From positions 471,001-535,000 of the forward strand of contig NZ_AP027142.1 of NCBI RefSeq assembly GCF_027925385.1: a DNA stretch of 64,000 bases, read 5' to 3'. This stretch comes from Methylocystis iwaonis (GTDB taxonomy: Bacteria > Pseudomonadota > Alphaproteobacteria > Rhizobiales > Beijerinckiaceae). Below, one piece after another: positions 9,401 through 55,484 of the stretch (the stretch's first letter is position 1; every line of letters begins with the position of its first letter). The notes beneath the pieces were generated by a model. The model did no database searches. It had not been told where the DNA came from and saw only the letters and a program-made list of their open reading frames with translations. A program made the translations under genes and the position numbers.

Positions 9401-9470
9401 GGACCGCGGGCCTTCAGGCCCGCATTCTTGGAGCGAGCCTGAAGGCTCGCGGTCCCGAGGCGCGCGGTCC
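9401..9470. repeat. family C palindrome (GGACCGCG...CCTTCAGG type), copy 1
   Basis: Inverted arms GGACCGCGGGCCTTCAGG and CCTGAAGGCTCGCGGTCC enclose a short spacer. Each arm also folds on itself (GCGGGCCTTCAGGCCCGC and GCGAGCCTGAAGGCTCGC). A second copy is at 53117-53175. It lies between two divergently transcribed genes, upstream of bioF. Confidence 0.75.
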
Positions 9471-50777: not shown

Positions 50778-50945
50778 ATGATTTCACTCCCGATCAGGCG
50801 CGCCGGTTTGTTCCCTGGCGCGATTTCTTATGAACAGAGCTTGGGCGATCCGCGCCGGTCTTGCAAGCCCGCTTCCTGCCACACAAACGTCACGCGCCGC
50901 CGCCGCGCCGCTTGACGCGGATGGTTGTTTTGCGCGAGTCTTGGC

Positions 50946-51114: not shown

Positions 51115-52125
51115 ATGCTAGCGCGCGTCATCGGCGCCGGCGTCGCCGGGCTTTGCGCCGCCTATGCCTTGGCGCGCGCCGGGGCGCAGGTGGAGCTTGT
51201 CGAGCGCCAGGCGACGGCTGGCCAGGGCTGCTCGCGTTTTGCGGGGGGCATGATCGCACCCTGGTGCGAGCTGGAGAGCGCCGAGCCGCTCGTGGCCGAG
51301 CTTGGCCAGGAGGCGCTCGCCTTCTGGACGGCCGACGTTCCTGTCGCCACTGTCGCTGGGACTCTTGTCGTCGCCGCGCCGCGCGAAGGCGCGGAGCTTT
51401 TCGATTTCGCCCGGCGGACGGATCACTTCGAGCGGCTCGACGGCGCGGGCGTCGCGGGGCTGGAGCCCGATCTCGCCGAGCGCTTCGACGCCGCGCTTTA
51501 TTTTGCGCAGGAGGCGCATCTCGATCCGCGCGCCGCGATGAAGGCGCTTGCCGACAGGCTTGCCGAAATGCCGAATGTCGTGCGGCATTATGGCGCGGTG
51601 GCGGAATCGCTTGCCACATCTCCCGATTGGACCGTCGATTGCCGTGGGTTCGCCGCGCGCGATGCGCTCGCCCGGCTGCGCGGCGTAAAAGGCGAGATGC
51701 TGGTTTTGCGCAGCGACGAGATTTCTCTCTCCCGCCCCATCCGCATGCTGCATCCGCGCCGGCCGGTCTATGTCGTGCCGCGCGGGGAGGGCGTGTTCAT
51801 GGTCGGCGCGACGATGATCGAGAATGAAGAGCGCGCGCGGGTGACGGCGCGCTCGGTTGTGGAGCTTGTCAATTCCGCCTTCGCCATTCACCCGGCCTTC
51901 GCCGAGGCGGAGATCGTCGAGACGGGCTCGGATGTGCGGCCGGCCTATCCGGATAATCTTCCCCGCCTGACGCAGCTTGGAAAGACGATCTATATCAACG
52001 GGCTCTACAGGCATGGTTTCCTGCTCGCCCCCGCGCTGGCGCGGCGCGCCGCAGAGGTTGTTCTTCGCGGCGCCTATTTTCCGGAGGTGATGGATGCAGA
52101 TTCGGGTGAACGGGCGTCCGCGTGA
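51115..52125 (+). CDS. thiO: glycine oxidase ThiO
   Basis: ThiO oxidises glycine to dehydroglycine for thiazole synthesis, using FAD and O2. The 336 residues start with the FAD motif VIGAGVAGLCAAYALARAGA, followed by CSRFAGGMIAPWCELE, characteristic of ThiO, and end with INGLYRHGFLLAPALARRAA. I chose ATG 51115 because upstream in-frame codons lie inside the riboswitch. It overlaps thiS by 32 nt. thiC and thiD, often next to it, are absent. Confidence 0.94.
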   Translation: MLARVIGAGVAGLCAAYALARAGAQVELVERQATAGQGCSRFAGGMIAPWCELESAEPLVAELGQEALAFWTADVPVATVAGTLVVAAPREGAELFDFARRTDHFERLDGAGVAGLEPDLAERFDAALYFAQEAHLDPRAAMKALADRLAEMPNVVRHYGAVAESLATSPDWTVDCRGFAARDALARLRGVKGEMLVLRSDEISLSRPIRMLHPRRPVYVVPRGEGVFMVGATMIENEERARVTARSVVELVNSAFAIHPAFAEAEIVETGSDVRPAYPDNLPRLTQLGKTIYINGLYRHGFLLAPALARRAAEVVLRGAYFPEVMDADSGERASA

Positions 52126-52291
52126 CGTGGACGCCACCACATTGGAGGCCCTGCTGCGCGAATTGGGCTATGAGCATCAGAAGGTCGGCACGGCGCTGAA
52201 CCAGGAATTCGTGCGCGACAGGGATCGCGAAAAGACCACGCTGCAGGAGGGCGACGCGGTGGAGATCGTCACGCCGCGGCAGGGCGGATGA
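52094..52291 (+). CDS. thiS: sulfur carrier protein ThiS
   Basis: ThiS carries sulfur as a C-terminal thiocarboxylate for thiazole formation. The 65-residue ubiquitin-like protein begins MQIRVNGRPRDVDATTLEAL and ends TPRQGG, with the essential Gly-Gly. It starts inside the end of thiO and its stop codon abuts the thiG start, a tightly coupled arrangement. Confidence 0.94.
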   Translation: MQIRVNGRPRDVDATTLEALLRELGYEHQKVGTALNQEFVRDRDREKTTLQEGDAVEIVTPRQGG

Positions 52292-53098
52292 ATGCAAGAG
52301 CTCATGACCGAAGCTGATCCGCTTACCTTCTATGGCGCGACGTTAAGATCGCGGCTGCTGCTCGGGACGGCGCGCTATCCCTCGCCGGCGATCCTTGCCG
52401 ACGCGATCCGCGCCTCGGGCTGCGAGATCGTTACGGTGTCGCTGCGGCGGGAGGCGGGCGGCTCGCGCGCCGGCGAGAGTTTTTGGGGCCTTATTCGCGA
52501 TCTGGGGGCGCGCGTGCTTCCCAATACGGCGGGCTGCCGCACGGCCAAGGAGGCGATTGCGACGGCGCAAATGGCGCGGGAGGTCTTCGAAACCGACTGG
52601 ATCAAGCTCGAAGTCATCGGCGAGGAGGATACGTTGCAGCCCGATGTCTTCGGGCTTGTGGAAGCGGCCAAGGCGCTCGTCGCCGACGGCTTCAAGGTCT
52701 TTCCCTATACGACCGACGATCTCGTCGTCGCCGAAAAGCTGCTCGACGCGGGTTGCAAAGTGTTGATGCCCTGGGCGGCGCCGATCGGGTCGGGACGCGG
52801 CGTCAACAACACTTTTGCGCTGCGCGCCTTGCGGGCGCATTTTCCGGAGACGCCGCTCGTCGTCGACGCCGGGCTCGGCGCGCCGTCTCATGCCGTGACG
52901 GTGATGGAAATGGGCTATGACGCCGTGTTGCTGAATACGGCTGTCTCGCGGGCGGGCGATCCTGTCGCCATGGCGCGCGCTTTCGGGCTTGCAGCCGAGG
53001 CCGGACGGCTGGCGTTCCGCGCCAAGCCGATGACGCCCCGCGACATGGCGGAGCCCTCGACGCCGGTGATCGGGCGGCCGTTCGAGGACATGCTCTGA
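52292..53098 (+). CDS. thiG: thiazole synthase
   Basis: ThiG joins DXP, dehydroglycine and ThiS-thiocarboxylate sulfur into the thiazole phosphate. The 268 residues include the Schiff-base lysine in [30 protein letters not shown], the phosphate-binding region [14 protein letters not shown], and [23 protein letters not shown] 52292 directly follows the thiS stop; ATG 52304 is a possible alternative. It is followed by a family C palindrome and then the ThiE-amidase fusion gene. Confidence 0.95.
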
Positions 53099-53116
53099 TA
53101 ATCTTTTTTCGTTTTT

Positions 53117-53175
53117 GCGCGCCTGAAGGCGCGCGGTCCTTGGGGGCCTCTCGGACCGCGCGCCTTCAGGCGCGC
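53117..53175. repeat. family C palindrome, copy 2
   Basis: Perfect 23-bp inverted arms (GCGCGCCTGAAGGCGCGC extended by GGTCC, and the reverse complement) surround a 13-bp spacer, and each arm also folds on itself. A T-rich run (53104-53116) precedes it. It separates thiG from the ThiE-amidase gene and could attenuate read-through between them. The related copy is at 9401-9470. Confidence 0.8.
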
Positions 53176-53205
53176 TGTCGTTGAAAAGATGATAAACCGC
53201 CGCCT

Positions 53206-54567
53206 ATGCCGACACTCACGCTCGACCCCTTCTACCTCATCGTCGATAACGCCGACTGGCTGACCCGGCTGCTGCCGCTCGGCGTGCGACTCGTGCAATT
53301 GCGGGTCAAGGATCGTCCGGAATCCGAGGTGCGCGCCGAAATCCTCCGTGCGCGCGATCTCTGCCGCACCGCGGGCGCGCAGCTCGTCGTCAATGACTAT
53401 TGGAAGCTCGCGATCGACGCCGGCTGCGATTTCGTGCATCTCGGGCAGGAAGATCTCGACGGCGCGGATCTCGACGCCCTGCGCCGCCACGAGGTGCGAA
53501 TCGGCGTTTCCACTCATGACGACGCCGAGCTCGACCGCGCATTGTCGATCTCGCCCGATTATGTGGCGCTCGGGCCCGTTTGGCCGACGCTGCTCAAGGA
53601 AATGAAATTCGCGCCGCAGGGCCTCGAAAAGCTCGGCGCCTGGAAGAAGCGCATCGGCGACATCCCGCTCGTCGCCATTGGCGGCCTCACGCCGGCCCGC
53701 GCCTGCCTCGCGCTGGCGGCGGGCGCCGACAGCGCCTGCGTCGTCACCGATGTTCTGCGCGCCCGCGATCCGGAATCGCGGGCGGTCGAATGGGTGGCGA
53801 CGACAGCGCCATGGCGCGATTCGCCGGAGCTGACGCGCGCGTTTCCCCCGGATTTCGCGGGCGCGAAAGTCTTCCCCTCGCCCAACCACGGCCCCCGCGC
53901 GCGCGCGGTCTCGGCGCTGGTGTTGCATTATACCGGCATGCCGGCGGCGGAGGGCGCGCTCGAGCTTTTATGCTCGCCGATCGCGGAAGTCTCGGCGCAT
54001 TATTTCGTCGAGGAAGACGGCCGCATCCTGCAGCTCGTGCCCGAGTCGCGCCGCGCCTGGCATGCGGGCGCCAGCTATTGGGCGGGCGAAACCGACATGA
54101 ATTCGGCTTCCATCGGCGTCGAGATTGTCCATCCGGGCCATATCGATCCGCATGATTTTCCGCCAGCGCAGATCGAGGCCGTCATCGCACTGTCGCGTGA
54201 CATTTGCGCGCGTCACAAGATCGCGCCCGAGCGCGTGCTTGCCCATTCCGACATCGCGCCGCGCCGCAAGATGGACCCCGGCGAGTTCTTTCCCTGGGCG
54301 CGCCTCGCCGCCGCCGGCGTTGGCCGTTATGTCGAACCCTTGCCGCCCGACGACGGCCCGGCGCTCGAATGCGCCGCCGCGGGCGAAGCGGTCGCGCGGC
54401 TGCAACGGCAGCTCGCCGCCTTCGGCTATAAAGTCAGTGAGACCGGCGTCTATGATGAAGATACGGCGTCGGCGGTCGCGGCGTTTCAGCGTCATTGGCG
54501 GCCAGCGCGGGTCGACGGGCGCGCCGACGCCTCGACCATAGACATTCTGACACGTCTTTTGCCCTGA
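53206..54567 (+). CDS. ThiE-type thiamine-phosphate synthase fused to N-acetylmuramoyl-L-alanine amidase and peptidoglycan-binding domain
   Basis: 453 residues in one uninterrupted frame. Residues ~7-200 are a ThiE TIM barrel: VRLVQLRVKDR, VVNDYWKLAIDAGCDFVHLG, the pyrophosphate-site GVSTH (100-104), VALGPVWPTLLK and PLVAIGGLTPARA. ThiE joins the thiazole and pyrimidine phosphates. Residues ~220-375 are an amidase_2 domain of the AmiD type, with the zinc ligand H241 in LVLHYTGMP, AHYFVEEDGRILQLVPE, SIGVEIVHPGH and AHSDIAPRRKMDPG (H347, K355). Residues ~392-452 form a peptidoglycan-binding domain (VARLQRQLAAFGY, AVAAFQRHWRP). No signal peptide is present and no internal start with a ribosome site was found at the junction, so the fusion looks real. 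Confidence 0.88.
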   Translation: MPTLTLDPFYLIVDNADWLTRLLPLGVRLVQLRVKDRPESEVRAEILRARDLCRTAGAQLVVNDYWKLAIDAGCDFVHLGQEDLDGADLDALRRHEVRIGVSTHDDAELDRALSISPDYVALGPVWPTLLKEMKFAPQGLEKLGAWKKRIGDIPLVAIGGLTPARACLALAAGADSACVVTDVLRARDPESRAVEWVATTAPWRDSPELTRAFPPDFAGAKVFPSPNHGPRARAVSALVLHYTGMPAAEGALELLCSPIAEVSAHYFVEEDGRILQLVPESRRAWHAGASYWAGETDMNSASIGVEIVHPGHIDPHDFPPAQIEAVIALSRDICARHKIAPERVLAHSDIAPRRKMDPGEFFPWARLAAAGVGRYVEPLPPDDGPALECAAAGEAVARLQRQLAAFGYKVSETGVYDEDTASAVAAFQRHWRPARVDGRADASTIDILTRLLP

Positions 54568-54578
54568 AGGAGTTTTAC

Positions 54579-55484
54579 GTGGCCATTGCAAAGCGCGCCG
54601 TCGTCGTCACCGGCGCTTCGACGGGCATCGGTCTCGCCTGTGTGGAAATTCTTACGAAAAAAGGCTTCTTCGTCTTTGGGTCGGTCCGCAAGCGTGCGGA
54701 CGCCGAGCGTTTGCAGTCGCGATTCGGCGACGATTTCTCACCGCTTCTCTTCGATGTCACGGATGCGGGCGCCGTCGCGCGCGCCGCGCAAGAGGTCGAC
54801 GCCCGGCTCGGCGGCGCGACGCTCGCGGGGCTCGTCAATAATGCTGGCGTCGCCGTGCCCGGCCCGCTGCTGCATCTATCTATCGCCGATCTCCGGCATC
54901 AGCTCGAGACAAATCTCATCGGCCAGCTACAGGTGACGCAGGCCTTTGCGGCGCTGCTCGGCGCGCGCGCGCCGCAGCGGGGCGCGCCGGGGCGGATCGT
55001 CAATATGAGCTCGGTCGCCGGCCGTTTCGCCTCGCCGTTTCTGGGCGCCTACAATGCCTCCAAATTCGCGCTGGAGGGCATGTCCGACGCGCTGCGCCGC
55101 GAATTGATGGTCTATGGCGTCGACCTGATCGTGATCCAGCCCGGCATGATTGCGACGCCGATCTGGGACAAGGCGGACAGCCGCGATTTCAGCCCTTTCG
55201 ACGCGACCATCTACGGGCCTGCGGCGCGTCGCATGCGGAAATGGGCCGTCGACGGCGGGCGCGCCGCGCCGGGGCCCGAGCTGGTGGCCAAAGCCGTGCT
55301 GCGCGCCCTTACTGCGCCGCGCCCGCCCGCGCGCATCCCCGTCGCCAATGGGATCGGTCACACCTTGCCAAGCCTGCTGCCGGCGCGATTTGTAGATTGG
55401 CTCGTGGCGCGTCGTTTGGGCTTCCACGAGACGCGCGACAAGCTTCGCGTCCACTATTCTGACGGAGACGGCAATGGCGAATGA
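54579..55484 (+). CDS. short-chain dehydrogenase/reductase
   Basis: 301 residues from GTG 54579, which has AAGGAG 6 nt upstream; this supports the rare start over longer openings inside the preceding gene. SDR motifs: the cofactor site VVVTGASTGIGLA, LVNNAGVAVPGPLL, the catalytic Ser in NMSSVAGRFASP and the YNASK site (GAYNASKFALEGMSDALR). It ends with a hydrophobic segment, IGHTLPSLLPARFVDWLVA. The substrate is unknown. It overlaps the following VOC gene by 11 nt and starts 11 nt after the ThiE-amidase gene, so it may be in the same transcript. Confidence 0.9.
   Translation: MAIAKRAVVVTGASTGIGLACVEILTKKGFFVFGSVRKRADAERLQSRFGDDFSPLLFDVTDAGAVARAAQEVDARLGGATLAGLVNNAGVAVPGPLLHLSIADLRHQLETNLIGQLQVTQAFAALLGARAPQRGAPGRIVNMSSVAGRFASPFLGAYNASKFALEGMSDALRRELMVYGVDLIVIQPGMIATPIWDKADSRDFSPFDATIYGPAARRMRKWAVDGGRAAPGPELVAKAVLRALTAPRPPARIPVANGIGHTLPSLLPARFVDWLVARRLGFHETRDKLRVHYSDGDGNGE

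Follow-up and report, generated by a model that had tools for sequence, protein, structure and literature searches.

A conserved fusion of thiamine-phosphate synthase to a probable AmpD-type wall-recycling amidase in Methylocystis

The window analyzed here is a stretch of 64,000 nucleotides from Methylocystis iwaonis (contig NZ_AP027142.1, positions 471,001 to 535,000), and the element in question is a fused gene, thiE::ampD, at 53206..54567 on the forward strand, delimited by an open reading frame scan, Pfam, NCBIfam and a genus-wide match search. The frame is open from ATG to TGA and its translation has 453 amino acids, in which Pfam finds TMP-TENI (residues 15-182), Amidase_2 (233-360) and PG_binding_1 (393-448), each above its cut-off. 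The ThiE half (53206..53817, forward strand) comprises residues 1-204 and ends in ...ATTAPWR, approximately where split Methylocystis ThiE proteins stop. It is followed on the same strand by a new linker of about 8 residues (205-212; 53818..53841), an AmpD-type Amidase_2 part (residues 213-372; 53842..54321) and the peptidoglycan-binding domain PG_binding_1 (54382..54549). The initial annotation had described a single continuous frame joining two apparently complete halves, lacking a signal peptide and placed after thiO-thiS-thiG, and all of this was borne out: the junction contains no stop, the Pfam domains and the ThiE equivalog exceed their cut-offs, the gene order is as described, and no leader peptide is seen in the translated sequence (by sequence; no dedicated signal-peptide program was used). 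The closest database protein, also from M. iwaonis, has equal length and 98% identity. Comparison of the sequences makes it probable that thiE::ampD encodes a real bifunctional cytosolic protein, in which thiamine-phosphate synthase (ThiE) and the Rhizobiales AmpD, an anhydro-N-acetylmuramyl-L-alanine amidase of wall recycling, form one chain.

The two halves of the fused protein

The ThiE half scores 325.3 bits against the NCBIfam ThiE equivalog NF000734 over residues 5-204 (cut-off 252), and the fused protein scores 151.3 bits against TIGR00693 (cut-off 145.1), which places it within the ThiE equivalog. The five motifs Q-R-K, ND, HLGQ-D, GVS-H and PTxxK, whose residues we assume to have their usual roles in ThiE, all match in 31 of 31 fused halves, with the first match to the ND pattern lying elsewhere (PENDV) in one row. 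They are invariant or nearly so across 32 aligned fused proteins, and motif counts agree in fused and split rows. Judged by these residues, the ThiE half looks active. It shares with other ThiE proteins the full domain, an equivalog score above cut-off, the fold and most active-site motifs; it differs in a C-terminus that continues into another enzyme, and in one motif taken up below. Fusions of a ThiE-like domain to a second enzyme also include yeast THI6, the multifunctional NF007070 and the Nudix fusion NF006530, where the partners act in thiamine or nucleotide metabolism, whereas the partner in Methylocystis would be a wall-recycling amidase. A second ThiE that could free the fused copy was considered and rejected: the only other TMP-TENI protein found in the genome (L053) passes Pfam at 70.5 against 27 bits and falls below the NCBIfam ThiE cut-offs (138.6 against 218 and 41.7 against 145.1). 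This ThiE/TenI-like protein (1480-2091; G000:C1:387.7 kb) lies directly behind a frame that we take from its sequence to be argH-like.

The amidase half is 56.5-57.8% identical over 236-237 amino acids to five Agrobacterium and Rhizobium proteins (L091, L095, L113, L118 and L120). The corresponding gene of Agrobacterium tumefaciens, atu2113, encodes the same two domains; it was "misannotated as an AmiD homolog" and renamed ampD, and its loss derepresses AmpC (PMC9238390), while its deletion leads to accumulation of muropeptides in the cytoplasm (PMC9790009). The comparison with Atu2113 itself covers its ends, as encoded by the primers of PMC9238390, where LPRFSAA corresponds to the C-terminal SLPRFSAA of L120 and MKECLPD to the N-terminal MSECLPD of L118 and L120; the full-length identity comes from the five other orthologs. 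By these comparisons the amidase half is orthologous, over its full length, to the cytosolic Rhizobiales AmpD of the Atu2113 type. The N-termini of seven split orthologs are not hydrophobic (by sequence; no dedicated signal-peptide program was used). The fused protein likewise lacks a signal peptide, as expected of cytosolic AmpD, and carries no export or lipoprotein leader of the AmiD/AmpDh2 kind. Residues H241, H347 and D357, likely Zn ligands, and E306 and K355, likely catalytic, are invariant in the 32 aligned fused proteins; we presume these roles from AmpD and AmiD structures. The pattern SIGxEI/V fails in 1 of 31 fused rows and the other two amidase patterns in none, and the amidase half, like its partner, looks active.

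This orthology removes an apparent paradox of compartments. The initial annotation had noted that amidases usually act outside the cell, a puzzle that dissolves because the half is orthologous to a cytosolic AmpD, and its suggestion that the amidase acts on cytoplasmic muropeptides during wall recycling agrees with the muropeptides that accumulate in the A. tumefaciens ampD deletion (PMC9790009). Atu2113 and its Rhizobiales orthologs share with the fused half the Amidase_2 and peptidoglycan-binding domains and the lack of a leader; the published role in cytoplasmic recycling of anhydromuropeptides is that of Atu2113. The Methylocystis AmpD differs in having no start of its own, being fused behind ThiE, and in occurring together with an AmpG-family permease.

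In the window's genome a genome-wide domain search finds the fused protein as the only Amidase_2 protein, beside one NagZ (NF003740, 251.2 against 207 bits) and one AmpG-family permease (L055, 1408-2769; TIGR00901, 386.5 against 350 bits), which leaves the fused protein as the only candidate for AmpD in a plausible route of recycling here. The presence of such a permease in a member of the Rhizobiales is contrary to PMC9790009, in which the order is reported to lack AmpG. A class C beta-lactamase, whose presence would lend AmpD a signaling role like that in Agrobacterium, was looked for and not found above the cut-off (73.4 against 415 bits). An AlphaFold model of the fused protein places the ThiE fold and the AmpDh2/AmiD fold in one structure, with a mean predicted local distance difference test score (pLDDT) of 87.6 and a predicted template modeling score (pTM) of 0.86.

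Distribution and origin of the fusion

Sixty-one genomes were searched, 37 of them from the genus Methylocystis, and in 31 of these 37 the two halves match in one frame. One of the 31, G008, has a listed internal stop, but it falls just ahead of an ATG that opens an uninterrupted frame of 461 residues. The halves lie at separate loci in four Methylocystis genomes (G007, G025, G033 and G034) and are adjacent in different frames in G017; G029, which is 90% complete, gave weak matches and no long one. A protein-database search scored 7998 candidates, and 104 of the best 120 of 5628 relatives contain both ThiE and Amidase_2; the entries among these 104 that name an organism are all Methylocystis. 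Outside the genus, no match spanning both halves occurs among the matches listed for 24 other genomes of the order and 114 other genomes of the family. None is listed in overlapping samples of 397 order and 385 class genomes, which took at most 4 candidates per genome at strict E-values (1e-90 and 1e-95), such that a very divergent fusion could escape. The ThiE-Amidase_2-PG_binding architecture for which the initial annotation proposed a search is thus widespread in Methylocystis and was not seen beyond it among the matches listed. It is only beyond the fused lineage that relatives have the two enzymes as separate proteins, and a stop between the domains, which a corrected sequence might have revealed, is contradicted by the full-length fused frames of the genus.

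The domain architecture is already displayed by databases, and the names given there to fused proteins are either "thiamine phosphate synthase" or "amidase" only. Two Methylocystis entries, P0107 and P0109, are annotated as stand-alone amidases that start inside the fused junction (MTATAPW... and MAATAPW...); these are either broken thiE halves or start-calling errors. No report of a thiE-ampD fusion was found among the papers listed in literature searches; the supplementary fusion tables of a survey of B-vitamin gene fusions (PMC4921024) might include it.

Several lines of evidence bear on how the fusion arose. In seven split genomes (G025, G033, G007, G101, G136, G040 and G092) the thi cluster ends at thiE with no amidase behind it; thiE is cut by a contig end in G034, and thiOSG was not found beside thiE in G162. 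The separate amidase is followed by a short-chain dehydrogenase (SDR) in G025, G033, G101 and G136, the one that also stands behind the fused gene in the window (54579..55484, forward strand, PF00106) and evidently travels with the amidase; no SDR was found beside the separate amidase of G034, G007, G162, G040 and G138. The amidase-SDR pair stands after moeA in G025 and G033, in G101 an M20 peptidase occupies that place, and the genome of the window has its moaC-moeA cluster at a distance of 1.3 Mb, with neither amidase nor SDR beside it. Since split relatives keep thiOSGE together with a separate amidase, in four cases with its SDR, the amidase-SDR pair appears to have moved behind thiE, in frame. 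By this comparison of gene orders, the arrangement of the split relatives, with thiE closing the thi cluster and the amidase elsewhere, is the older one. A concatenated tree of six proteins (39 rows; G040, G092 and G138 omitted) separates the 31 fused rows and G017 from the rest by a branch that scores 100 in the Shimodaira-Hasegawa-like approximate likelihood ratio test (SH-aLRT), in a quick search without bootstrap. One rearrangement probably joined the halves, with a later break in G017. In this genome (L031, 4990-5110) the junction has a deletion relative to its fused neighbors, and ThiE and AmpD are read from two frames that overlap; either the fused gene has split again or the sequence is in error.

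The junction, the thi cluster and the riboswitch

Comparison of the fused proteins with split ThiE tails and amidase heads locates the linker between the native end of one enzyme and the native beginning of the other. Split Methylocystis ThiE proteins stop just past an EWxxAT tail (for example EWLHATAEWRR), and split Methylocystis amidases start with M (or V)-S/T-F-x-x-DY and continue to SPNHG or SANHG; the fused proteins read EW..AT.PWR (PCR in one), then the linker, then F-x-D and SPNHG. Because the fused ends match these split tails and heads, both enzymes are seemingly complete and the short linker, 8 residues in the clade of the window and about 5 in the other, is the sole new protein. 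Pooled over 10 chosen genome pairs, in an alignment without G008 and G032, the ratio of nonsynonymous to synonymous differences (pN/pS) is 0.18 for ThiE, 0.13 for the amidase, 0.17 for the peptidoglycan-binding domain and 0.23 for the junction, a span (197-225) that takes in native ends of both enzymes. The inner linker between amidase and peptidoglycan-binding domain has a pooled value of 0.48, and the highest values for a single pair are 1.09 there and 0.38 in the junction. By this measure the junction is under purifying selection.

The initial annotation saw no internal start with a ribosome-binding site at the junction, and closer inspection agrees. From residue ~175 to 238 the only in-frame ATG, GTG or TTG of the window is a GTG at residue 197, preceded by TCGCGGGCGGTCGAATGG and without a Shine-Dalgarno-like tetramer. 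A junction start codon with such a tetramer occurs at 2 of 30 fused loci (GTG 191 in G009 and TTG 205 in G021). The most recurrent junction start codon, a TTG at the column of ThiE Leu-184, is present at 23 of the 30, lacks the tetramer and is absent from the window.

Upstream of the fused gene the forward strand carries open frames for thiO (51115..52125, listed from an earlier start at 50830), thiS (52094..52291) and thiG (52292..53098), named from the initial annotation and position. Their order is conserved, and a thiO ortholog precedes thiS-thiG-thiE in both fused and split relatives. Ahead of thiO lies a weak match to the thiamine pyrophosphate (TPP) riboswitch aptamer (RF00059; 50941..51098, forward strand), with 40.9 bits against a gathering score of 54.3 and an E-value of 5.9e-7 on 261 bases; Rfam at its gathering threshold returns nothing in the whole window. 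Upstream DNA was fetched from 20 of the 30 other fused genomes, and in 20 of 20 an aptamer precedes the thiO match by 13-38 nucleotides, all with E <= 0.01, the gathering score being reached in 2. The aptamer also occurs in G032 and G017, and exceeds the gathering score at 5 of 8 split loci. The earlier placement of the gene under a TPP riboswitch is therefore supported by an aptamer at the same place in relatives, with the reservation that the score in the window itself is below gathering. Given its presence ahead of thiO in all 20 fetched fused genomes, AmpD is probably co-expressed with the thiamine genes.

A 23-bp perfect inverted repeat resembling a repetitive extragenic palindrome (REP) lies between thiG and the fused gene (53117..53175, no strand assigned). 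The REP-like palindrome, GCNNGCCTGAAGGCNNGCGGTCC, often occurs in inverted pairs, in the window at 9401-9455 and 53117-53175, and has 173 exact matches in the genome (89 forward and 84 reverse) against 0 for a reversed-pattern control; it represents a repeat family of this genome. In G036 and G023 the region between thiG and the fused gene holds an insert. That of G036 (L153) contains a PhyH-like frame read in the direction of the thi genes, and that of G023 (L158) a frame resembling a phage tail sheath that is read against them.

Alternative readings and significance

A number of observations weigh against a bifunctional ThiE-AmpD made with the thiamine genes. Fused ThiE has PTLLK where Bacillus subtilis ThiE has PTETK, a difference that the split relatives share. 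The amidase misses the AmpD equivalog NF008758 (109.5 bits for the whole protein and 111.5 for the half, against 143), and is for this reason classed as a Rhizobiales-type AmpD and not as a member of that family; its active-site loops 289-297, 350-354 and 356-359 have pLDDT values below 50. The permease misses both AmpG equivalogs (208.7 against 656 and 204.8 against 756). A further Amidase_2-like match, 39-45% identical to part of the half, is present in 15 of the 31 fused genomes (for example G016:C31:227488-227757) and not in that of the window, so that being the sole amidase does not explain retention everywhere. With respect to co-expression, thiG and the fused gene are 107 nucleotides apart in the window, with the REP-like hairpin in this gap, and co-transcription from the riboswitch is doubtful in G036 and G023 because ~1.17 kb separates the two genes. 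Finally, a tree of the two halves (42 rows, also a quick search without bootstrap) places four split genomes inside the fused ones, beside one fused clade, with SH-aLRT 85; this topology needs two fusions, or fission and return to the older arrangement, which we judge less likely than a single origin.

The competing explanations differ greatly in how well they account for these data. A sequencing or assembly artefact is scarcely credible and was rejected, because an equal fused frame recurs in 31 of 37 genomes of the genus and both domains in 104 of the 120 database proteins listed. Hardly more tenable is an exported wall hydrolase of the AmiD/AmpDh2 type that happens to carry ThiE. The nearest solved structures by sequence and fold are indeed AmpDh2 (Pseudomonas aeruginosa) and AmiD (Escherichia coli), the basis of the "AmiD-type" label in the initial annotation, which holds for structural likeness and fails for function, the published function of the Rhizobiales ortholog being that of AmpD. 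AmpDh2 and AmiD are envelope enzymes with export signals, unlike the fused protein and the split orthologs with their non-hydrophobic N-termini. The Agrobacterium ortholog, moreover, acts on cytoplasmic muropeptides (PMC9790009) and is itself a misannotated AmiD (PMC9238390), and export was rejected for want of a leader together with orthology to cytosolic AmpD. Quite unlikely, if less remote, is the idea that internal initiation or proteolysis frees a separate AmpD and the long frame merely couples translation. The linker could serve as a cleavage site, the window has its GTG at residue 197, a start with a Shine-Dalgarno-like tetramer appears at two of the 30 loci and the Leu-184 TTG without one at 23, and the amidase-only entries P0107 and P0109 begin near the junction. 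No single position, however, keeps a start with a Shine-Dalgarno-like tetramer, a promoter and terminator scan (a weak test) found no promoter-like site in 52900-54700, and the junction frame stays open where two products would tolerate a stop.

A selected functional coupling, in which the fusion is kept since tying AmpD to ThiE, through TPP co-expression or scaffolding, matches wall recycling to thiamine status, is also unlikely. Its appeal is that the fusion has been retained in 31 of 37 genomes, including 15 with a further Amidase_2-like match, that the aptamer is kept in all 20 fetched fused genomes, and that the pTM gives a hint that the halves pack in a defined way. The constrained junction (pN/pS 0.23) would fit as well, but this figure includes native ends of both enzymes. 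Against coupling, no shared metabolite or known pathway connects the two enzymes, none of the matches listed outside the genus is fused, the halves are in different frames in G017, and two genomes have an insert between thiG and the gene; that the cell needs both enzymes is enough to account for retention, with no link between them. The connection between thiamine synthesis and wall recycling raised by the initial annotation is unsupported, since relatives carry genes for two proteins far apart and, in G017, the halves do not share a frame. A specific form of the idea, that the TPP riboswitch controls peptidoglycan recycling because AmpD is translated as the end of ThiE, such that AmpD falls and anhydromuropeptides rise when thiamine is plentiful and vitamin status would set the level of wall fragments, and that this coupling was selected, we regard as improbable.

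The preferred reading, a bifunctional cytosolic ThiE-AmpD, starts from what the comparison of relatives shows. In the fused Methylocystis lineage the amidase-SDR pair sits immediately behind thiE, and an in-frame linker of ~5-8 codons takes the place of the stop of thiE and the start of ampD. The rearrangement was presumably single and accidental. Each half would keep its own job, the ThiE half joining hydroxymethylpyrimidine pyrophosphate (HMP-PP) and thiazole phosphate to give thiamine phosphate, and the AmpD half removing the stem peptide from anhydromuropeptides that the AmpG-family permease may import and NagZ trim. Since a cell that lost the gene would lose both enzymes, the fusion would persist; the simplest account is that it arose by accident and was then fixed. 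What is new is probably above all a matter of regulation, as AmpD would now be encoded in a cluster with a TPP riboswitch at its head.

The surprise lies in the fusion partner and the regulatory consequence, not in a demonstrated pathway. The joining of the halves is real and conserved, and it offers a natural example of two unrelated housekeeping enzymes turned into one protein that has persisted in the greater part of a genus; close relatives show both the older arrangement, with the genes apart, and one re-split case. As such it is a warning that a conserved fusion need not mean a pathway link. It is also an annotation trap, for database names with one function conceal what is probably the AmpD of these genomes. 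Should the regulatory consequence hold, a vitamin riboswitch would govern cell-wall recycling in these bacteria.
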